A stretch of 64,000 nucleotides of DNA. It comes from Komagataella phaffii GS115. Its lineage: Eukaryota > Ascomycota > Pichiomycetes > Pichiales > Pichiaceae. Each line of letters opens with the position of its first letter. Positions within the stretch are counted from its first letter, which is position 1. Location: assembly GCF_000027005.1 (NCBI RefSeq), contig NC_012965.1, positions 359,001 through 423,000 on the forward strand, in the 5' to 3' direction. The notes beneath the pieces were generated by a model, which did no database searches, was not told the DNA's origin, and worked only from the letters and a program-made list of their open reading frames with translations. Shown here piece after piece: positions 2,763 through 24,969 of this stretch. Made by a program: the position numbers and the translations under genes.

Positions 2763-4502
2763 ATGTCCAATGCAGCCCCGAATATGCAGATTCTGCAACA
2801 ACTGGCGACCCTGCCACCACAACAGCAGCAACAAATTCTTCGACAAAACCCCCAGCTAGCCATGTTCCTTCGACAGGTCCAACAGCGACAACAACAGTTT
2901 ATAAACAAACAAGGACAGGCACCGCCTGGTATGGGCGTTGGAGCTGGTATTCAAGCGGCTCAAGGTATGCAAGGGCAAGGCGGACCTATGATGCCAGAGC
3001 AAATACCCGTTGGTGCTGCTGGTCATCCTGGAAGTTTGGCTCATGGAGTACCTGGTGTTTCTCCTGCAATATCAACACCACCAGTAGGTTCTTCTTTTCG
3101 TCCAAAACTACCAGGTGGCTCTGCTCCTTTACAACCCGAACTTCCCAGGCTGAGTAGCTTGCGTTACTGGTCAGAGAAGCTGGAAAAAGAAGGTAAACCG
3201 GTGGACACAAATACACTTCTCTATGAACAAATTATTACTCGGGATAAAGCTAATATAGAAGCCAGAGCACAAAATGAACAGGAAAAAAAGGTTTTAGAGT
3301 CCTTGATAAAGGATCTCAAATTTTACAATGAACTCAAGAGCTACCGAATGAAATCCATTCAGGCAGTAAATAATGGCATGGTGGAAGGACCACCGAGCAT
3401 CTGGGGAGAAGGATATCAAGGATATGGCCATGGATTTACAGGCAAAACTACCACACAATTTGTTTATCCTCAAAAAAGAAAGAAGTATTCCAGAATTCCG
3501 GAAAGCTATATTCCAGACGAATTGATGGAACAGCAGGCGGAGAGTATAGACGAATGGGTGCCGATTAGAATGGATTTTGATATCGAAAGGGACAATTTCA
3601 AACTTAATGACACTTTCCTTTGGAACTTGAATGAAAAGGTTGTAACTTTAGAACGATTTGTTGCCGTTTTGATGGAAGACTACAAGTTTAAAAATCCATT
3701 GTTTTTGGACACCATCTTAGCTAATATGAAAGAACAGATTAACGAATATCGAACAGCAACGAACACAAGACCGCAAGACTTAAGGGTTGATATCAAGCTT
3801 GATATTGCTATGGGTAATAATCAGTTGATTGACCAATTTGAATGGGATATCTCGGATCCAAATAATGATCCAGAAGAGTTTGCAACAGTATTGTGTGCTG
3901 AATTAGCAGTCCCAGGGGAATTTGTTACTGCAGTAGCACATTCTATCAGAGAACAAGTACAAATATTCATCAAAGCTTTGCACCTCATAAATTACCCTTT
4001 TGATGGATCTGTAATTGAGCAGGAACAGGTGAGAAGATTGGTTAAACCACATATATTGCCCAATGAAAGCATTTTGCGATCAAGAACTCAATTCCAGGAT
4101 TATTCTCCTAATCTCTTAGAAATCAGCATTGAAGAATTGCAACGTTTAGACAAAGATAAAGAAAGGGAGAGTCGTAGGAAACGAAGGGGAATGGGAAGAG
4201 TTGGACGCAGGAACGGACTAGTTCTTCCTGAATTATCAGATGCACCGAAAACAATTCGTACGCCCATAGCTTCTACTGTTTTACCATATGGTATAGAGGT
4301 TGGACCCTCTGTAGATTCTTTTGTTGATATCGTGGAGTCTATTGAGGATCCCAAAGATCCCAAAGTTGTGGAAAGAGTCCGAGAACCTAGTGCCATAAAT
4401 TCCAGCACAGGAACACCGAATATAGGTGGAAATAATGGTGTTGTTTCGGTTCAACACGACTATGGTAACTCGCTCTATGTCACCATCAAGCTACGAAGGT
4501 GA
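2763..4502 (+). CDS. SNF5: SWI/SNF chromatin-remodelling subunit Snf5
   Basis: This 579-residue protein has a glutamine-rich N-terminus (about residues 1-60, including PPQQQQQILRQ), a Gly/Pro-rich linker, and the SNF5/INI1 domain at about residues 262-430. The two imperfect repeats begin near VPIRMDFDIERDNFKLNDT and LRVDIKLDIAMGNN. Snf5 bridges the remodeller to nucleosomes and activators. The poly-Q N-terminus favours SNF5 over the RSC paralogue SFH1, although it is shorter than S. cerevisiae Snf5 (905). The open frame extends upstream to 2667 without an ATG, so 2763 is the first in-frame ATG. A basic cluster (RRKRRGMGRVGRRNG) follows the domain. Confidence 0.88.
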   Translation: MSNAAPNMQILQQLATLPPQQQQQILRQNPQLAMFLRQVQQRQQQFINKQGQAPPGMGVGAGIQAAQGMQGQGGPMMPEQIPVGAAGHPGSLAHGVPGVSPAISTPPVGSSFRPKLPGGSAPLQPELPRLSSLRYWSEKLEKEGKPVDTNTLLYEQIITRDKANIEARAQNEQEKKVLESLIKDLKFYNELKSYRMKSIQAVNNGMVEGPPSIWGEGYQGYGHGFTGKTTTQFVYPQKRKKYSRIPESYIPDELMEQQAESIDEWVPIRMDFDIERDNFKLNDTFLWNLNEKVVTLERFVAVLMEDYKFKNPLFLDTILANMKEQINEYRTATNTRPQDLRVDIKLDIAMGNNQLIDQFEWDISDPNNDPEEFATVLCAELAVPGEFVTAVAHSIREQVQIFIKALHLINYPFDGSVIEQEQVRRLVKPHILPNESILRSRTQFQDYSPNLLEISIEELQRLDKDKERESRRKRRGMGRVGRRNGLVLPELSDAPKTIRTPIASTVLPYGIEVGPSVDSFVDIVESIEDPKDPKVVERVREPSAINSSTGTPNIGGNNGVVSVQHDYGNSLYVTIKLRR

Positions 4503-4791
4503 ACTTTGGTTGTCAAAACAAACCGTTGTTTTTGTATAGTATAACGTAGTTTAATAAGCCGAAGAATACATTAGAGAGTATATTTGCGAAGTGAGAAACT
4601 GAATTAATAACACCCCAAAACTGCAATCAAACGGTCAAAAGGCCATGTACCCAACCACCTTCCAACTGCCATCAAATGGGCAATGAAATGAATGGGTTTT
4701 TAGTGCAACTGTCCCAAAATAGTATTTAAATAGGTTACTAAAGCCGGATTGACATCTGACATCTGATATCGCGGTAAAGAGGGATTCGTAT

Positions 4792-5988
4792 ATGCAGACA
4801 GGAACAGCCTCCTTTACTAACATGAGTAACGAACCGCAAAAAGTAAGTAAAAATCAACCAACGAGTCACTGGAGTGTTTCTGCATGTCACATCTACTCTT
4901 CTGAGAGCATCCATGACAGGTTAGATCCCTCTTTTGAGACGTTTCCTTCAAGTATAAATTCTAACTCAGTGGCAAAGGATCCTTTGGTTTCCCAAAGTGT
5001 GCATTTGTTGTCTTCATTCGAAGGCGATAACTCAATAAAGGATTCCGTGCATGAACACGAACTTGACCAGATGGAACCCGAAGGAGACTCTAGAGAGATT
5101 GAAACAGCTCAAGATTCCGGGGATGCCCTCACCAACGCCTCTTTTTTTATGAATATGGACAATGGCGTACAACAAGGAACGTCATCCGATGCAGTAGATA
5201 ATGGTGACATCGCAAACGAAGCACAAGGTAGCAAAGGTAAAACCATATTTAAACAGTTTCGGGATAAATTAAAGTCGTTACCAATTTTTAATCAAGGGCG
5301 TCACTTTCGGTATACGAGGGTTGAGGGTGAACATCCTAACGTTCGTGGAGCCGAAAATGATGGAGTATTTGCCAATATAACAGCCACCTCTGAATCAGGT
5401 GATCCTTTAGGTCGTGGAGAAGAGGAACTACCTTCTTACGATGAAGCAGCTGCTGATTCGGCACCAACATATTGGGAGTCTACTGTTGTTACTCCTGGCT
5501 ACGAGGATGAAGTTTTTGTGGAAGGTTTGCCAGTCGGTAATCTACTCAACTTTTTCTGGAACTTGATGGTATCTGTGATATTCCAGTACCTCGGGTTCGT
5601 ACTTACATATTTATTACACACGTCCCATGCTGCCAAAGAAGGATCCTGTGCCGGTCTAGGTATTACTATCATCACTTTGGGATTTGATTTACTGCCTTTT
5701 TCAATTTTTCATCGGAATAATGGACAAGCGAGCCGTTTTGAACCTGCTGCTCCCAATGATTACGACGTCGATACTTCAGAAACTCTAGACGGGTACACTG
5801 ATGGATTCACCAGTGCTTTGGACTCTGGAGCCAAGGTTGAGCAAGAACCTACTAGATCGCCAATTGCCGCATACGCTTTGATAGCGTTGGGAATGTTTTT
5901 ATTTCTACGGGCAATAGCTGGCTACTTTAGGGCCAAACGCATGGAAAGATTGATTTTGAACCCAGTTACAAACCCAAGTCCCGTGTGA
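4792..5988 (+). CDS. BSD2: Bsd2/NDFIP-family Rsp5 ubiquitin-ligase adaptor, three-TM
   Basis: This 398-residue protein has a long acidic N-terminus, then LPSYDEAAADSAPTYW at about residues 213-228, and three membrane segments (about 252-276, 283-304 and 360-380). That is the layout of Bsd2 and NDFIP, which recruit Rsp5/Nedd4 through PPxY-type motifs to sort misfolded or excess membrane proteins, including metal transporters, to the vacuole. The WW-binding motif here is LPSY, a variant of PPxY. A second in-frame ATG lies at 4822. The stop is 14 bp from the convergent CTP1 stop. Confidence 0.87.
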   Translation: MQTGTASFTNMSNEPQKVSKNQPTSHWSVSACHIYSSESIHDRLDPSFETFPSSINSNSVAKDPLVSQSVHLLSSFEGDNSIKDSVHEHELDQMEPEGDSREIETAQDSGDALTNASFFMNMDNGVQQGTSSDAVDNGDIANEAQGSKGKTIFKQFRDKLKSLPIFNQGRHFRYTRVEGEHPNVRGAENDGVFANITATSESGDPLGRGEEELPSYDEAAADSAPTYWESTVVTPGYEDEVFVEGLPVGNLLNFFWNLMVSVIFQYLGFVLTYLLHTSHAAKEGSCAGLGITIITLGFDLLPFSIFHRNNGQASRFEPAAPNDYDVDTSETLDGYTDGFTSALDSGAKVEQEPTRSPIAAYALIALGMFLFLRAIAGYFRAKRMERLILNPVTNPSPV

Positions 5989-14170: not shown

Positions 14171-15793
14171 CTATACAAAATGGTTGATTAAGTGGTCCTC
14201 TAACCAGAGCATTACTGTCCCTTCTCTTCCTTTTCTTTGTTCCAATTCCTTATTTTTCAACCTCTTTTCATCTTCATCTATTGTGGCCTTACCTGTAAAC
14301 AGATCACATTCGGAAGAACTTACTCTTTTACTTTTGTTCATCAATTTGTAGCCTCCCAATAATGCCAGATAGATAGGAATTCCAATGTATCCAGTGATGA
14401 AATTCTTATAATCAAATTTGTCCCCAAGAAACACTCCAAAGTTGTTCATCAGGACAATGACAATGCAAAATAGAATGCAAACATAAGAATACAATGGCTG
14501 GAAAGGTGCTCGCCACGGTAGGAAGCTGTTTCGATCAAAGTTTTGTTTCTTAATTGCTTTCATAAATGAAATATGAGCAACTAGTAATGATATCCAAACT
14601 AACAGCCCAAATACAGAAACGACATTGACAAAGTAATTGAACACTGTTCTAGCAGAAGAGGTCAAGGTCATGAAAGCCAAAAGGGAAAATCCACACCCAA
14701 CAAGAACCCCGTAGATTGGCACACCGTGCTTTGTGGTCTGAGCAAAGATCCTTGGAGCCTGCCTTTTCACAGCCAGTCCATGCAATGTTCTTACAGCTAC
14801 GTAGAAGTCGGAAGTGGCTGAAGAGACTGCAAATAACAGGATACAACCGTTGATTAGATGCGGTAGTCCGTTGATTTTTGCTATTTTCATTGCAACAACG
14901 AACGGAGAAGACGCGGCAGATGTGGTTGATTTGATGGCTTGTTCCATTAACGGATCATTAGATGGCACACAGCATCCAAGTAAGAACACTGTAAAGCAGT
15001 AGATCAATATGATTCTCCAGAAGGTCAGTTTGATGGCTTTTGGTAAAGCTCTTCTTGGATTTTCTGCCTCAACAATTGCGACACAGACGAATTCAATCCC
15101 CACATAAGAGAAAACAGCATTAACCATTACCGACATAAACGACAAAGCTTTACCTTTTGGTCCTTCTATCACGGTTGCCTGATGATAATCTCTGAAGGCA
15201 CCCGGATCATGCCAGTAGCGGAATCCTGATGGTTGGCGGTTGGGGGCTCCTCCTGACATGATGACCATCATAACAATCCACAACCCCACAATGGTGATTA
15301 TTTTAACAGAAGAAAGCACGCATTCAAAATTTCCAAAATATTTTACGGGTAATAAGTTGGCAACCCACACTACTACCATAAAAACAAATATCCAAACTCC
15401 CGAATTAACTTGATCGGTGCTGACCCAAAACTCCATGACCAAACTGGTAGAGACAATTTGGTTGGGCATGGAGAATAAATAGAGTAGCATATAGGTCCAT
15501 CCAGTTGCAAATCCCAATGCAGGATGACAGTAACGATGGGCGTAACCAGCAAAATCACAGGGAATAAACGTGGCCATTTCCCCGATTGCAGCGATAACAC
15601 CAAAGGCAATCATTCCTACAGCTAGGAAAGATATCAGTACTGCACCTGGGCCAGCATCATAAAGTGCTTTTGCAGTTCCAACCATCAAGCCCACTCCAAT
15701 ACCTCCCCCCATTGCAATAATGGAAACATTACGGGCGTTGAGGGTTTTTTTTAGGTCTGTGCTTGTGTCTAATTCAGACTTTAGTTCTGACAT
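14171..15793 (-). CDS. Amino-acid permease (YAT/APC family), specificity unassigned
   Basis: This 540-residue protein has about twelve predicted membrane segments and the fungal amino-acid permease signatures. These are NARNVSIIAMGGGIGVGLMVG at residues 18-38, the TM3 region ATFIPCDFAGYAHRYCHPALG, and FSYVGIEFVCVAIVEAENPRRALPKAI. It should be a proton-coupled plasma-membrane transporter. It differs from general permeases in the FIPCDFAGYAHRY stretch and I cannot assign a substrate. The charged tail is KNKELEQRKGREGT. It is convergent with MAE1, with 51 bp between stops. The long upstream gap (864 bp to the next gene) suggests regulated expression. Confidence 0.85.
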   Translation of the reverse strand: MSELKSELDTSTDLKKTLNARNVSIIAMGGGIGVGLMVGTAKALYDAGPGAVLISFLAVGMIAFGVIAAIGEMATFIPCDFAGYAHRYCHPALGFATGWTYMLLYLFSMPNQIVSTSLVMEFWVSTDQVNSGVWIFVFMVVVWVANLLPVKYFGNFECVLSSVKIITIVGLWIVMMVIMSGGAPNRQPSGFRYWHDPGAFRDYHQATVIEGPKGKALSFMSVMVNAVFSYVGIEFVCVAIVEAENPRRALPKAIKLTFWRIILIYCFTVFLLGCCVPSNDPLMEQAIKSTTSAASSPFVVAMKIAKINGLPHLINGCILLFAVSSATSDFYVAVRTLHGLAVKRQAPRIFAQTTKHGVPIYGVLVGCGFSLLAFMTLTSSARTVFNYFVNVVSVFGLLVWISLLVAHISFMKAIKKQNFDRNSFLPWRAPFQPLYSYVCILFCIVIVLMNNFGVFLGDKFDYKNFITGYIGIPIYLALLGGYKLMNKSKRVSSSECDLFTGKATIDEDEKRLKNKELEQRKGREGTVMLWLEDHLINHFV

Positions 15794-16657: not shown

Positions 16658-18061
16658 ATGAAGAAGCTGCAGCTTATGGGACTTAAGAAGAAATTTTCAA
16701 AGAAAGTCCCAAAAGAACCAGTTGTGTACCCTGAAATTCATTTAGTGAGCCTTCCAGATGAAATTTTAACTCTCATATTCAAGAACTTAGATAAGAAGAC
16801 ACTATGCGCTCTTTCCCAAATTAACAAAAGACTCCAGGCGGTCAGTCAAAAGACACTTTACAGAGCTATCCGTGTATCCTCCACTTTAAAGTTGTTACAA
16901 CTCTGTAGAACTTTGGATAGAAACTCAGTGGAACAAAAGCCATGGTTGTACGCTATTGATTCACTACAGTTGGATATTGACATTGGAAATAGTGCAAACG
17001 AGTTTATCAGTGTGAGCATAGGGAAGTTGGGATACTCTTCATCCATAAAATCTACCAATTACAAAGATTTATTGAACACGTTTAACTTGTACAAGAACCT
17101 CATGACACATTTACTTTCCCTCAACTCCATTTCTCTAACTCAAGTTTCACCCCGACTAAATTTTCCCATAGAATGTTCTCTTTACTACAAAGTTAATGAT
17201 AGGATTGAATGTCCAAAGAATTACACTTACGATGACTTGAGGAGAGATTCCATCAAAACTGTCAGATTGGAAAGTCAAGACGGGATTTCCATCCCATTAC
17301 GAAGCCACTTATTATGGTCATTTGGATTGATCAAAGAGCTGATCCTTCGAAACATGAATATTGATGAAGAATCTCTTGTAGACACGAGGTATTTAGTAGA
17401 TGCTTCCTCCGGTAATTGGATTATTGACCCCATTAATCAAATCACTCAACCAATTACTGGCTTCCCAACCATCGATACGATACCAAAACATAAGAAGAGC
17501 TACCACTCTCCGATAGAGAAACTTACCCTAAATGCTACCACCGTTTCATCTTCCGCATTGCATTTTCTTCGAAACTATTTTCACAATGTTACTGAATTAT
17601 GTCTACTTAACATCAAAAACTTACACGATTTGGCTTCTATCACATATTTTCCTAACATAAAAGCATTAACCATTGATTTAGACTCCAAAATCTTTTGGAA
17701 TTTTTTGAATGATTTCCCAGTTCAGTTCGATTCGTTCTTCAGTGTATTGTGTTCACTCCATAAAATTCAAACAATAACATTCGTCAACGTCAAATTTTTC
17801 AACTTATCTTTAATTCCAAGAGAGCCTGTCAATGAATTAGATTATAACTCCTATAAAGTATCTATCTACCGGTTGTTCACGCATTTGGGCCGTATTGAAA
17901 ATGTCAGTTTCATTCTAACTACCCCGAAGAGAATCACCGCAAACACAAGATATCCTCTATTTATGAATCGTGACTGGTTGAGTATCTTATGGCCATTTGT
18001 TGATACTGGTTGTAAAGTTTCCATCAAATACGATGAAGGATCTTATGAATTCCAAGGGTAG
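16658..18061 (+). CDS. F-box protein, unnamed
   Basis: This 467-residue protein opens with a lysine-rich leader (MKKLQLMGLKKKFSKKVPKE). A clear F-box follows at about residues 27-72: LVSLPDEILTLIFKNLDKKT, then ALSQINKRLQAVSQKTLYRAI. The rest has leucine-patterned strands (IEKLTLNATTVSS, VTELCLLNIKNL, IKALTIDLD) suggesting a degenerate leucine-rich-repeat domain for substrate binding. By family it should act as a Skp1-binding SCF adaptor. No orthologue is recognised. It has the same layout as the 10087-11631 protein, but the two do not look like recent duplicates. Confidence 0.68.
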   Translation: MKKLQLMGLKKKFSKKVPKEPVVYPEIHLVSLPDEILTLIFKNLDKKTLCALSQINKRLQAVSQKTLYRAIRVSSTLKLLQLCRTLDRNSVEQKPWLYAIDSLQLDIDIGNSANEFISVSIGKLGYSSSIKSTNYKDLLNTFNLYKNLMTHLLSLNSISLTQVSPRLNFPIECSLYYKVNDRIECPKNYTYDDLRRDSIKTVRLESQDGISIPLRSHLLWSFGLIKELILRNMNIDEESLVDTRYLVDASSGNWIIDPINQITQPITGFPTIDTIPKHKKSYHSPIEKLTLNATTVSSSALHFLRNYFHNVTELCLLNIKNLHDLASITYFPNIKALTIDLDSKIFWNFLNDFPVQFDSFFSVLCSLHKIQTITFVNVKFFNLSLIPREPVNELDYNSYKVSIYRLFTHLGRIENVSFILTTPKRITANTRYPLFMNRDWLSILWPFVDTGCKVSIKYDEGSYEFQG

Positions 18062-18186: not shown

Positions 18187-19769
18187 TCAAACCTTAAAGT
18201 TCCATTCCTGTTGCCTTTGCCTGATTGCTCTGATTTTTTTTTCTCTTGCAATTTGCTTCTGTACCTTTGACTTTTCCTGTTTATTCTGCTTTGGTTTGGT
18301 CTTTTTGTTTGGAATCTTCCTGGTTTGGGGTTTGGGTTTGGGATTTGGGTTTGTTATTTGTCCTAAAAAATGGTTAGTAGTTCATTCTTGATGATAGGGT
18401 TCGATTTTAAAGTTAACCTACTAGAACTTGTTGAAGTTTCTACGTTTAAGATTTGGAGGTACTTACCATTTTTTGAGCCCTGGGATTTTTCTGGAACTGT
18501 TTGCTGTGTATCTGGTCCATTCAAATTATGGGTAGCAACAATTTTGCTCTTCTGGAATTTTGTTCCATCTGATAGAAAGATTTCTTTCTTTACAACAAAA
18601 TCATCATCACTCAACTCTACGTAGGAGCCTTTCTCACCTTTGACTCCCTGCGTAATGAAGGCCATTCCTAGACTTTGAGGAACAACCAATTTGTCCCCCA
18701 AATTTTCATAAGTGCCCTGACATTTAAGCGGTGCGGATCTAACATTTTCATTCATCTGCTTTATGTGGTAAGTTTCTGAGGCCTTAGCTAATTGGTTCTT
18801 GAAAGTTTCAAAATCCTTCAATAGTTTAACTCTCCCATCTGAAAGATATTCCACCATTCCATAATTATTCGGTTCTTGGGCAAACTCATAAGCAAGACCT
18901 CCGTTGAAAACAGAGCTCATCTTAGAAGAATAAATAGCCTCCACCTCTTGGAAAATTCTTGGAGTCACTTCGTTACATCCGTATTCTGAGAACATGATTG
19001 GTTTGGTATAATCCGCATAATGAGCTACCAACTGGTCATAGCCGCTCGTTTGCATGTTTTGATAGCCACACCATTGGTAGCTGTTGACTCCATAAAAGTC
19101 AACGCTATCCAATTCAGCTGTACTATTTGAGCATTCTAGGTACTTTGCCAATGGAATTCGAAAAGAAAGATCATCGGCTGCAGAATATCCAACAGGGATA
19201 GGTCTATCGCTATGATGTGTGATGTATGTTTTCAAATCTCTTACAACTGCTTTCATATAGTTAGAAGAATGTGTGGCGGAGACCTTATCATTCACGACTT
19301 CATTACCAGCAAAAAAGGCCAAGGTATTGTTATAATGAGAAAATTGTTCAACCACTTTGAAGATATGGTATAGATAATCATGATTATAGGAGCTCCAAGG
19401 CTCATATCTATTAATGCTTTGATTTGGCAAAGGTGAATTAACATCCAAGATCAAGTATATCCCAGCAGAAGCCAAAAGCGACATGCATTTGTCATGATTC
19501 AAGTCAGGATTAACCGAATAAACTCTAATAGTATTTATTCCAAGTTCCTGGAACAAGAGAATATCTCTAGCACATTCCTCTATTTCTGATAAAGGATCTT
19601 TGTCCGTTGAAACTCCAGAGGCACCTCCTGGCTGATAATCAACTCCCTTGACCATGAAAAGCTCACCCGTAAGAGAGTCATAAAAGTGCTTCCCCTTAAT
19701 GGTGATGGGATGGATATAGCCAAGGACCACATGCACGAGAAACAAAAGAACTGTCACCAAATATAGCAT
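18187..19769 (-). CDS. GH72 beta-1,3-glucanosyltransferase (Gas family), spliced
   Basis: The protein has a signal peptide (residues 1-17) and a GH72 domain. Acid/base Glu157 lies in FFAGNEVVND and nucleophile Glu262 in MFSEYGCNE, matching the spacing in Gas1. Gas enzymes elongate cell-wall beta-1,3-glucan. I propose two exons, 19769-18467 and 18362-18187, joined across a 104-nt intron, giving 492 residues. Without splicing the frame stops at 18363 after 468 residues. Neither form has an X8 domain or a hydrophobic GPI tail. The second exon encodes a 57-residue Pro/Lys/Gln/Arg-rich tail. The compact form recalls Gas2/Gas4-type sporulation enzymes, but I cannot assign the paralogue. Confidence 0.82.
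18327..18349 (+). other. G-quadruplex-type motif in the GH72 second exon
   Basis: The + strand has four G-runs separated by 3, 3 and 4 bases (GGGG-TTT-GGG-TTT-GGG-ATTT-GGG). The motif starts 14 bp past the intron acceptor, and the C-rich complement encodes a Pro/Lys stretch. Confidence 0.6.
18363..18466 (-). other. Spliceosomal intron in the GH72 gene
   Basis: Read on the minus strand the intron begins GTAAGT (18466-18461). It carries a perfect TACTAAC branch site (18379-18373) and ends TTTTTTAG at 18363. Donor, branch point and acceptor all fit budding-yeast consensus. Splicing joins a one-base codon remnant (G at 18467) to GA at 18362-18361, restoring Gly and opening a 57-codon frame. If the intron is retained, the stop codon TAG overlaps the acceptor AG itself. 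Confidence 0.8.
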
Positions 19770-20008: not shown

Positions 20009-20081
20009 TGGACGAGTTGGGAATCGAACCCAAGACCTCTCCCTTGCAAGGGGAGCGCGCTACCAACTACGCCACACGCCC
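20009..20081 (-). tRNA. tRNA-Ala (anticodon UGC)
   Basis: The 73-nt gene folds as a cloverleaf on the minus strand. It starts GGGCGTG, has the D-arm GCGTAGTTGGTAGCGC, anticodon stem-loop CTCCC-CTTGCAA-GGGAG with anticodon TGC, T-arm GGTTCGATTCC, and discriminator A. The G3:U70 pair, identity element for alanine, is present. There is no intron, and the sequence resembles yeast tRNA-Ala. Confidence 0.96.
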
Positions 20082-20204
20082 GAATAATACAAACTAGGAT
20101 AATGGAGTAATTATATTATAGAAAGAGAGATGTGTTGCTTCTTCATTAGATTCTTTCAAAGAACTGTTGAAGACAATTTAGCCACTTTAAAATATTCCTG
20201 CTGT

Positions 20205-21080
20205 CTATTCACCTCTACCAACCACTTGCAATTGCACCCTAAAGCATTCACCAGGAGAAAATTTTATGTGAATAAAGTCATAAACTGCTCCATCAGGAAA
20301 ATACTGGGAACATATACTTTGGACTGCGGTGCACTCTTCCAAGCATACTAAAAAGACACTTACTCGAATAACCTCATCCAAGGAAGCTTTAGCCTCCCTT
20401 AAAACATCACATACATTTCGAATTGCATGATGAGTCTGATCCGTGGTAGTTTGAGGAATGCTCCCTTTTCTTCCATTGATGCCAAAGATTCTCCCAGTAC
20501 AGATCAAATTTCCCAAGATAAACTTTGGAGTTTGGACAACGTGGTACTGTTTTTGCGTTGAATATGTTATGCTTTTCGGTGTTAAAGGAGTGGAACTCAT
20601 CAGCTCTAGGGATTCTATTGACTGTGCCTCAATGGGATTAGTGTTTTCATCGGTTCTTTCTATGCCTACAATTGAGATTGTATGGGGACCCGATCCAAGA
20701 CTATTATCAGAAATATCTGCAGCATGTCTCCTGTAATGGCGATCTCTGACATCTTTGCGATTGAACGATCTACCACAACCTTCGATAGGGCAATGGAACA
20801 CACGGGTTTTTAGGTGAAATGTCTCCTTATGCCTTTTTAGATGGGAAGCACGAGAGTAGCCTCTGGAACAATCACCAATGTCACAGATGTATGGGCAGGC
20901 ATTGACCCGTGGGTCTTCCGAAGTTGGGACTTCATCTACGGATTTGGAACCAATGTAGTGTTCAGGGACCATAGTTAGAAAACTAGGAGGGATACTTGTT
21001 GTCAGTAATTGAAGACAAGGGCCAACTGGGTGATAGAAAGACAATAGGAGGACAACAAGAGTGAATGTCATATTTGACAT
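20205..21080 (-). CDS. Two C2H2 zinc fingers fused to a RidA/YjgF-like domain
   Basis: This 291-residue frame combines parts not normally found together. Finger 1 has Cys66, Cys71, His84 and His89, and finger 2 has Cys97, Cys102, His115 and His119, both TFIIIA-like with 12-residue loops. After a linker (about 121-177), residues 178-291 resemble RidA/YjgF enamine deaminases: NLICTGRIFG, DQTHHAIRNVCDVLREAKAS, LDEVIRVSVFL and SQYFPDGA. The final RidA strand (consensus VEIEAIA) is missing, so the domain may be truncated. The N-terminus is hydrophobic (FTLVVLLLSF). A start at Met37 (20972) would remove it and give a 255-residue soluble protein. Function is unknown. Confidence 0.65.
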   Translation of the reverse strand: MSNMTFTLVVLLLSFYHPVGPCLQLLTTSIPPSFLTMVPEHYIGSKSVDEVPTSEDPRVNACPYICDIGDCSRGYSRASHLKRHKETFHLKTRVFHCPIEGCGRSFNRKDVRDRHYRRHAADISDNSLGSGPHTISIVGIERTDENTNPIEAQSIESLELMSSTPLTPKSITYSTQKQYHVVQTPKFILGNLICTGRIFGINGRKGSIPQTTTDQTHHAIRNVCDVLREAKASLDEVIRVSVFLVCLEECTAVQSICSQYFPDGAVYDFIHIKFSPGECFRVQLQVVGRGE

Positions 21081-21476
21081 GCTAAAATTACAAGCCGCAA
21101 ATAAAGGTCGCAGTGCGGATTTGGACTAACCATATGGTCAACCTTAGGCTGGGTATCAGACCCTTAGAAAAGAGTTTGCCCCTTGACAGTACCGGGCGTC
21201 TTATTCCATTCGGAGCTTGAGAAAAAAGGCAGATGCCTTGAAATTTTATCAACATATTTACCGTTTAATATTTCTGATACTTCTGCAGCACGACCTTCTT
21301 ACTACCACTGCCTGTTAGAGCCGTTAACCCTAATAGCCATGTTCACGTTGATGTAGTTTGATCAAGGGAAGTTGCCAAACAGATACACCTAGATTGCGGT
21401 AAGGATGTACGCTTAATCTCGCATTATCGAGATACTCATCACCGGTGTTGAAGCTTAAACAGTCACGCAGCACCCA
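21081..21476. promoter_or_regulatory. Divergent intergenic region before DSD1
   Basis: This 396-bp gap separates the zinc-finger/RidA gene (minus) and DSD1 (plus). I see no ORF, RNA gene or repeat. It presumably holds both promoters. Confidence 0.35.
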
Positions 21477-23286: not shown

Positions 23287-24969
23287 TTAAGCTGCGTTGG
23301 TCTTGGCAGTGATTTCAGCTTGCTTGACTAAGGAAATTGGAGCATCCATAGTCTCCAACATGATCTCGATGACACGGATCTTGTCAGGCTTGTTGAAACC
23401 TTGGTCCTTGAACAATTTGGTCAACTCTCCGACAGTAGAGACTCTAGTACTTTCAGAGTTCTTGGCCTTAAAGGTGTCTAGCAGCTTAAGGTGGTCCCAT
23501 GGTTGAATATCGTTATAAGAAGCCTTCTCACCGTGAATCAATCTCTCGATAGTGTAACCATCGTTATTAAGGATGAACAGGTATGGCTTCAAGTTCCAGC
23601 GAGCCATAGTGGAAATCTCCTGGACGGTCAGTTGCAAAGAACCATCACCAACAAACAGGATGACTCTTCTGTTGGGGTCGAGCTCCTCAGTAGCACAGAC
23701 AGCTCCTAGGGTAGCACCGACGGAGAAACCAATGGAACCCCACAGGACCTGGGAAATACCAGATACGTGGGTTGGGAATCTTGATTGAACGATACCGAAA
23801 GCAGAGGTTCCGGTCTCTGTGATGACGACGTCACCAGCTCTGAGGAACTTGCTGATGTTGCTCCACAACCAGTCCTGGGTCAAATCTTCGCTGGCACCCT
23901 TTTCGATAGGAGGAGCAATCTTTGGAGGAACTTGAGCAGTAATGTGCTTAGATGCCTTACCGACAAGTGGTAACAGCTTTTGCAATAGGGCCTTCATCTG
24001 AACGCCTTGGAACACTGCACTACGGATTTGAGTGTAGTCAGAGTGGAACTCAACAATGTTCTTGGAGTGGGAGTAAGAGAAAGATCCAGTGTTGAAGTCA
24101 GACAGAAGAGCACCAACAGAGATGACAAGATCAGCCTTCTCCACGAACTCTGTAATGTCTGGGTTAGACAGAGAACCCACATAAGCACCACCAAACTGTG
24201 GCTTTTGTTCGTCAACACCACCTTTACCCATTGGAGTGACAAAGACTGGGAAGTTGGTGACGTCAATGAGTTGGTCAACCTCTTTTTGACAGAAGTGTCT
24301 GGATGCACAGGCATCAACCAGAATAACTGGCTTTGAAGCCTTTGAGATCAGTTCCAAGATGGACTGTAATGCCTCCTCCTCAGCCTCGACTGGGTTTGGA
24401 ACTGGCTTCAAGTCAATTGGGGTGTTCAAACGAGTTCTGTCAACCTTCATCTCGACAAGGTTAGTTGGCAGTCCAAGGTAGATAGGACGTTGGTAAATGA
24501 AAGCTTCACGGATGGCACCGTCGATCATATCTTGAGCCTCGTTGATATCAGAGATAAAGTTGGCAGACTTGGAGACGTTCTTGAAGACACGCTTGAAGAC
24601 ACCGAAGTCTCCGTTACCGAGGGTGTGGTGAAGCAACAGCTTCTTCTCCTGGGAAGAGATAGCTGGGACACCGACAATATGCAGCAGACCGACATGCTCG
24701 GCAAAGGAACCAGCGATACCATTGACGGCACTGAGCTCACCGACACCGAAGGTGGTGATCAAAGCAGCCATTGACTTCACTCTGGAATAACCATCTGCAG
24801 CGTAAGCAGCGTTCAATTCATTGGCGTTTCCTGCCCATCTCATGCCCTCAACTTCATAGATGTGATCCAACAAAGCCAAGTTGAAATCTCCTGGAACACC
24901 AAAGATAGTCTTGACGTCGATTTGCTTCAGACGTTCGAAGATGTAAGTTCCTAGTGTTATTTCAGCCAT
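23287..24969 (-). CDS. PDC1: Pyruvate decarboxylase
   Basis: This 560-residue thiamine-diphosphate enzyme converts pyruvate to acetaldehyde and CO2. Glu51 (NANELNAAYAADGYSR) contacts the cofactor, the catalytic His114-His115 pair is in KKLLLHHTLGNGDF, and the ThDP/Mg motif is GDGSLQLTVQE with NNDGYTIE. The length matches fungal Pdc enzymes (563). Codon use is strongly biased (many AAG, GTC, ACC and TTG codons), indicating high expression. This bias also creates long false ORFs on the other strand. The symbol PDC1 is by family; paralogue number was not checked. Confidence 0.95.
   Translation of the reverse strand: MAEITLGTYIFERLKQIDVKTIFGVPGDFNLALLDHIYEVEGMRWAGNANELNAAYAADGYSRVKSMAALITTFGVGELSAVNGIAGSFAEHVGLLHIVGVPAISSQEKKLLLHHTLGNGDFGVFKRVFKNVSKSANFISDINEAQDMIDGAIREAFIYQRPIYLGLPTNLVEMKVDRTRLNTPIDLKPVPNPVEAEEEALQSILELISKASKPVILVDACASRHFCQKEVDQLIDVTNFPVFVTPMGKGGVDEQKPQFGGAYVGSLSNPDITEFVEKADLVISVGALLSDFNTGSFSYSHSKNIVEFHSDYTQIRSAVFQGVQMKALLQKLLPLVGKASKHITAQVPPKIAPPIEKGASEDLTQDWLWSNISKFLRAGDVVITETGTSAFGIVQSRFPTHVSGISQVLWGSIGFSVGATLGAVCATEELDPNRRVILFVGDGSLQLTVQEISTMARWNLKPYLFILNNDGYTIERLIHGEKASYNDIQPWDHLKLLDTFKAKNSESTRVSTVGELTKLFKDQGFNKPDKIRVIEIMLETMDAPISLVKQAEITAKTNAA

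Follow-up and report, generated by a model that had tools for sequence, protein, structure and literature searches.

Does a yeast carry a protein in which C2H2 zinc fingers are joined to a domain of the RidA family, and what would such a protein do? This question arose from a sequence-only reading of a 64,000-nucleotide stretch of Komagataella phaffii GS115, termed the window, which comprises bases 359001 to 423000 of contig C3 in a genome of 9.2 Mb and four contigs. Positions 20205 to 21080 of the window hold, on the minus strand, an open reading frame (ORF) of 291 codons with an ATG start and no interrupting stop, referred to here as the fusion gene. This ORF had been read as encoding two complete C2H2 fingers followed by a RidA segment. 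We consider the chances about even that the fusion gene encodes a C2H2 regulator with a RidA-fold domain that is without the essential Arg of this family.

Finger pair and RidA-family core

Both domains were detected with curated Pfam models. Two stretches of the fusion protein matched zf-C2H2 (30.6 bits versus a cut-off of 25.2), and all eight of the zinc ligands claimed by the sequence-only reading were located, namely C66, C71, H84 and H89 in finger 1 and C97, C102, H115 and H119 in finger 2, with both fingers having the form C-x2-5-C-x12-H-x3-5-H. The Ribonuc_L-PSP model (PF01042) matched residues 193 to 263 with 35.2 bits versus a cut-off of 27.3 (E value of 1.4e-8), which places the protein in the RidA family. 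This match is located within residues 178 to 291, for which the absence of a significant RidA match was to have counted against the sequence-only reading. A six-frame search of the genome detected PF01042 again at the fusion gene (36.9 bits) and at two other places. These two are an ordinary Mmf1-like gene, which scored 138.7 bits with PF01042 and whose product, compared by eye with a protein listed for Komagataella kurtzmanii, has a single difference in 122 residues, and a 633-amino-acid (aa) protein with a RidA match, which we take to be Dph6-like. Profile comparison with hhalign gave an E value of 8.8e-10 and an alignment ending at residue 263, while the NCBIfam model TIGR00004 gave 36.6 bits, below its cut-off of 106.25. 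The core (residues 195 to 263) scored 99 as opposed to 21 ± 3.7 for shuffled sequences, none of 300 shuffles being as good. As both Pfam matches exceeded the curated cut-offs and the RidA match was obtained again in the genome search, the two-domain assignment for the fingers and the RidA core is secure at the level of sequence. The fingers and the RidA segment do share one uninterrupted frame, as had been proposed, and both Pfam domains are present in P0001, the database cluster to which the fusion protein belongs.

A finger search of the genome yielded 18 matches, including the fusion gene itself, and the best three elsewhere (C3:922041, C1:1229351 and C3:851617) were compared with it. The fingers at C3:922041 and C3:851617 are part of ORFs of 842 aa (L024, C3:919911-922439) and 881 aa (L026) with a Fungal_trans domain, while at C1:1229351 the fingers adjoin a Fungal_trans frame and are in a different frame. 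At this third locus (L025, C1:1226500-1233500), the 123-aa ORF containing the fingers (2768-3139) overlaps the Fungal_trans frame (2982-5009) and a run of A's is present nearby; the frame break may reflect an intron, a true frameshift or an error in the sequencing. Positions −1, 3 and 6 of finger 1 were R, H and R in all four proteins (the fusion protein and the three paralogue loci). For finger 2, positions −1 and 2 were R and D in 4/4, position 3 was V in 3/4 and L in 1/4, and position 6 was R in 2/4 and K in 2/4. The L024 and L026 proteins likewise have their two-finger domain near the N terminus, with most of the key contacts the same, but differ in size and remaining content from the fusion protein, which has ∼255 to 291 aa, a RidA-like domain and no Pfam match to Fungal_trans (PF04082), a domain present at all three paralogue loci. 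When read with the usual C2H2 recognition rules, the finger contacts suggest a GNGGGG-type site. As these contact residues are common to likely transcription factors, they argue for the fusion protein being a DNA binder, perhaps of the same sites.

The essential Arg and the predicted RidA fold

According to excerpts of PMC4433059, an Arg of RidA (Arg105 in Escherichia coli TdcF) holds the substrate carboxylate and its replacement by Ala almost abolishes imine hydrolysis; the Rid4 to Rid7 subfamilies are without this Arg and presumably have another role, and Rid proteins are typically trimeric. In an alignment of 58 relatives, the conserved Asn was kept in 57, the Arg in 57 and the cleft Glu, which is Glu120 in TdcF, in all 58, while the fusion protein has Gln254, Tyr267 and Gln283 in these columns, the assignment of Tyr267 to the Arg column being dependent on a weak alignment. 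No Arg is present in residues 264 to 280. Comparison of the C-terminal 28 residues with the RidA C terminus gave a score within chance (671 of 1,000 shuffles were as good or better). Because this stretch cannot be aligned by sequence, it is safer to say that no RidA C terminus with the Arg was findable. A frameshift at the RidA C terminus was considered and rejected, as the other frames scored 15.8 and 15.2 versus 14.1 for the real frame, all of which are noise, and no PARSC-like stretch was found in the other two frames of positions 20100 to 20330. Judged from these residues, canonical deaminase activity of the RidA part is unlikely. The absence of the essential Arg is shared with Rid4 to Rid7 (PMC4433059, excerpts), but the best NCBIfam match of the fusion protein was to the archetypal Rid model TIGR00004, the Rid4 to Rid7 models not having been tried separately.

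An AlphaFold2 model of residues 161 to 291 had a mean predicted local distance difference test (pLDDT) score of 81.4 and a predicted template modeling (pTM) score of 0.78 and resembled solved RidA structures. The core had pLDDT values of ∼85 to 97 and the fold was completed by strands at residues 266 to 271 and 282 to 289. On this model, the sequence is consistent with a RidA fold, which is likely to be present in the fusion protein. The sequence-only reading had reported the last RidA strand to be missing; 28 residues with two predicted strands follow the core, contrary to that claim, while their sequence does, in agreement with it, no better than shuffles. At the other end of the RidA part, residues 168 to 194 were marginal (63 of 1,000 shuffles as good or better). 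A model of the full-length protein had a mean pLDDT of 54.4, a quality too low for the arrangement of the fingers and the RidA part to be read from it. The likeness to the RidA/YjgF/YER057c/UK114 family, which includes Mmf1/Hmf1 and Bacillus YabJ, thus consists of the core, as detected by Pfam, TIGR00004 and hhalign, and of the predicted overall fold, whereas the fusion protein differs in having no findable essential Arg, two diverged ends and a location of the RidA part behind zinc fingers.

These features are consistent with a small DNA-binding regulator whose finger pair would match in type the pairs present in the C2H2/Fungal_trans factors of this yeast and in which a RidA-fold domain lacking the Arg would take the place of the Fungal_trans domain of the paralogues. 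Such a protein would enter the nucleus and bind a GC-rich GNGGGG-type site, while the RidA-fold part would oligomerise and/or bind a small molecule rather than hydrolyse imines, and the protein may compete with its paralogues for common sites or act there as a repressor. A more specific proposal, which we regard as rather doubtful, is that the fusion protein is a eukaryotic one-chain counterpart of RidA-linked regulators, combining a fungal finger domain with a RidA fold of possibly bacterial origin in which catalysis has given way to sensing of a ligand or to DNA binding as a trimer.

Several observations weigh against a regulator of this type. The fusion fingers have only 22 to 25 identities in 60 columns with those of the paralogues, so that descent from the C2H2/Fungal_trans group is not proven. 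The Arg and Glu columns (Tyr267 and Gln283) are uncertain, as the C-terminal alignment is weak and the strands there are without sequence support. According to excerpts of PMC4433059, Ser replaces the Arg in ∼10% of RidA proteins and replacement of Tyr17 or Glu120 has little effect on the Salmonella enterica RidA protein; the Arg is, therefore, the main yet not an absolute argument. The first 50 residues of the RidA-part model have pLDDT values of 55 to 71, and the predicted fold is not independent evidence because RidA relatives were present in the AlphaFold2 alignment. Codon usage of the ORF was 0.044 bits per codon, compared with a median of 0.156 for 36-codon gene windows, a low value that fits a weakly expressed regulator and, equally, a young or decaying gene.

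Translation of the fusion gene may start at Met1, Met4 or Met37 (position 20972). Codons 1 to 36 had a codon score of −0.088, compared with a 5th percentile of 0.002 for gene windows, and specify hydrophobic residues; these codons may be a non-coding leader preceding a start at Met37, for which the evidence is weak because the finger segment also had a low score (−0.048).

Occurrence and origin of the domain pairing

The occurrence of this pairing was examined in a database of 5.8 billion proteins by a word-based search, which misses far relatives. The whole protein gave one match at an E value of 1e-5 from 436 candidates and this match was its own cluster, P0001, a 90%-identity cluster with 5 member sequences from 6 contigs. 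The RidA region alone gave one match at an E value of 0.01 from 19 candidates. A two-row profile, which included the yeast's Mmf1-like protein, gave 6491 matches at an E value of 0.001 from 7999 scored sequences, the best 120 of which were inspected. All 120 had PF01042 and included proteins of Ogataea, Kuraishia, Brettanomyces, Candida and Saccharomyces, which indicates that the database is rich in yeasts. No protein other than P0001 with both PF00096 and PF01042 was found among these best 120 of 6491, and a diverged fusion is possible among the other 6371. In the literature, no paper on a zinc finger or C2H2 domain joined to L-PSP, RidA or YjgF was found in the titles and abstract starts among the matches listed. 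The sequence-only reading knew of no described budding-yeast protein with both domains, and, apart from P0001, none was seen among the matches listed from both sources. The domain combination predicted for the fusion gene is real and has so far been seen in one database cluster. Two other types of RidA protein were encountered in the database: P0006, an unnamed 386-aa protein, has three tandem RidA domains by eye, like the 3x-RidA proteins mentioned in excerpts of PMC4433059, and P0037, a 233-aa RidA protein of Ogataea philodendri, also has PF15786 and is possibly a merged gene model.

A 52-row tree put the RidA part outside the fungal group (support of 99/93) and with no settled place among bacterial and Dph6-like rows. 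A 47-row tree was obtained after removal of five long rows (DPH6_RidA1, DPH6_RidA2, P0006a, P0006b and L016), and in this tree the approximately unbiased test gave no rejection of a grouping with the 33 rows from fungi and metagenomes (p-AU of 0.457). Both trees were built without loci L010 and L011, alignments A3 to A5 without L010, L011 and L015, and A5 also without L016. The branch leading to the RidA part had 3.79 and 5.55 changes per column in the two trees and is too long for this part to be placeable. The top identity in the 47-row set was 34%, to the bacterial locus L005, a biased value because the patterns used to retrieve the bacterial loci were derived in part from the RidA domain of the fusion protein. 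Sequence matches of the RidA part in the PDB were led by Bacillus YabJ (27.8 bits), followed by yeast YER057c, which we take to be Hmf1 (24.0 bits), and Mmf1 (20.8 bits). As the gap in bit score between YabJ and the yeast proteins is too small, no claim of transfer from bacteria is made. The PurR-YabJ system of Bacillus subtilis, in which the RidA-family protein YabJ has the PDB name purine regulatory protein and is tied to transcription control, forms a purR-yabJ operon (PMC8789054, excerpt). PurR and YabJ are separate proteins, whereas the fusion protein combines a RidA-like part with a different DNA-binding domain in one chain.

Competing explanations and the DSD1-like neighbour

The main rival to the regulator proposed here is a decaying or young chimera, in which the RidA part is fading, or selection never acted on its fold, and at most the fingers act. 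We judge this to be unlikely but the best of the alternatives. The very long RidA branch, the unrecognisable C terminus, the weak codon usage and the occurrence in only one database cluster among the matches listed speak for such a gene, while the 291 open codons, a core that exceeds the Pfam cut-off and is modelled with high pLDDT values, and the five member sequences of P0001 speak against it. The suggestion of a decayed fusion in the sequence-only reading thus stands as regards the strong divergence of the RidA part and is countered by an open frame and a recognisable core. An annotation artefact, with two genes or a domain-removing intron and hence no protein with both domains, is improbable. 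Consensus-like 5′ splice sites are present at positions 20414 and 20363 within the ORF and at 21302 upstream, but an internal intron was rejected as the RidA match runs unbroken across both internal sites. Furthermore, there is no stop between the domains and, by our own reading of the sequence, a splice joining 20363 to the next likely acceptor would cause a frameshift. An upstream intron that alters the N terminus only may still be present.

The sequence-only reading had also proposed a metabolite-sensing transcription factor linked to the neighbouring gene. A DNA-binding regulator is indeed the best reading of the fusion gene, but sensing or destruction of 2-aminoacrylate gained no support because the essential Arg was not found and nothing beyond adjacency links the two genes. 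For a RidA pocket that recognises 2-aminoacrylate or a related imine and controls DSD1, the divergent arrangement of the genes across 396 bp was confirmed, as was the membership of the neighbour in the D-serine dehydratase family by PF14031. This explanation has, in our estimation, a small chance of being correct, given that the carboxylate-binding Arg was not found and that adjacency observed in a single genome carries little weight. A chemical link to DSD1 would need a working or at least ligand-binding RidA pocket, the presence of which is doubtful. The metabolite-sensing connection to DSD1 is speculation. No copies of GNGGGG were found in the 504 bp between Met37 and DSD1, the shared promoter region, compared with 0.28 expected from the density in the window, a result that is uninformative. 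The lowest rank of all was assigned to an RNA-directed protein, with fingers that bind RNA and a RidA-like part that works as a ribonuclease or inhibits translation, as reported for some members of the family. The family name Endoribonuclease L-PSP, the titles under which relatives appear in the PDB (for example, translational inhibitor) and a report of a ribonuclease YabJ in Staphylococcus aureus (PMC6435465, excerpt) favour RNA as the target, while the finger contacts match those of loci with a transcription-factor domain and the Arg of the RidA cleft was not found.

The features of the locus are collected in Table 1. The malic enzyme and pyruvate decarboxylase genes of the window agree in order and kind with PAS_chr3_0181 and PAS_chr3_0188, which are given as malic enzyme and pyruvate decarboxylase in excerpts of PMC8778476 and PMC6722669. 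By an unverified interpolation, in which the tags between 0181 and 0188 were counted with five protein genes and a tRNA gene included, the DSD1-like gene may be PAS_chr3_0187 and the fusion gene PAS_chr3_0186. PAS_chr3_0187 is described as a gene of unknown function that is up on Yap1 overexpression (PMC5349127, excerpt), and, if the tag is correct, this would make the locus stress responsive and lend some support to a sensor. No mention of PAS_chr3_0184, 0185, 0186, 0189 or 0190 was found in open-literature main texts.

Table 1. Features of the fusion gene and its surroundings in the window
Feature	Position	Strand	Evidence or remark
Whole ORF, 291 aa + stop	20205..21080	-	Database copy P0001: start at Met4, 288 aa
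Possible coding region from Met37, 255 aa	20205..20972	-	Codon usage and hydrophobic residues 1-36 (weak)
C-terminal 28 residues, expected site of Arg and Glu strands; predicted strands	20208..20291	-	Model; sequence unrecognisable
RidA core, residues 193-263; Gln254 in conserved Asn column	20292..20504	-	Pfam, hhalign, shuffles
Probable N-terminal RidA strands, residues 172-192	20505..20567	-	Model pLDDT 55-71; marginal by shuffles
Linker, residues 123-171, net acidic (2 K/R, 7 D/E)	20568..20714	-	Without Pfam match
C2H2 finger 2, residues 95-119; contacts R(-1) D(2) V(3) R(6)	20724..20798	-	Pfam and pattern extraction
C2H2 finger 1, residues 64-89; contacts R(-1) S(2) H(3) R(6)	20814..20891	-	Pfam and pattern extraction
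Intergenic region common to divergent DSD1-like gene, 396 bp	21081..21476	.	ORF positions
D-serine dehydratase family protein, DSD1-like, 421 aa	21477..22742	+	PF14031 80.6 bits, PF01168 35.2 bits
Amino-acid permease	14174-15793	-	
F-box protein	16658-18061	+	
GH72 glucanosyltransferase	18363-19769	-	
tRNA-Ala, anticodon TGC	20009-20081	-	~120 bp downstream of fusion gene
Pyruvate decarboxylase-like thiamine pyrophosphate (TPP) enzyme	23287-24969	-	

If the fusion protein is made and conserved, an ancient detoxification fold would have been recruited, after loss of the Arg, into a gene regulator to form the half that does not bind DNA. The host appears to be a yeast in wide use for production and can be manipulated easily, and the function of the protein is, therefore, directly testable. 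If true, this reading would bear on why some bacteria tie RidA proteins to transcription control.
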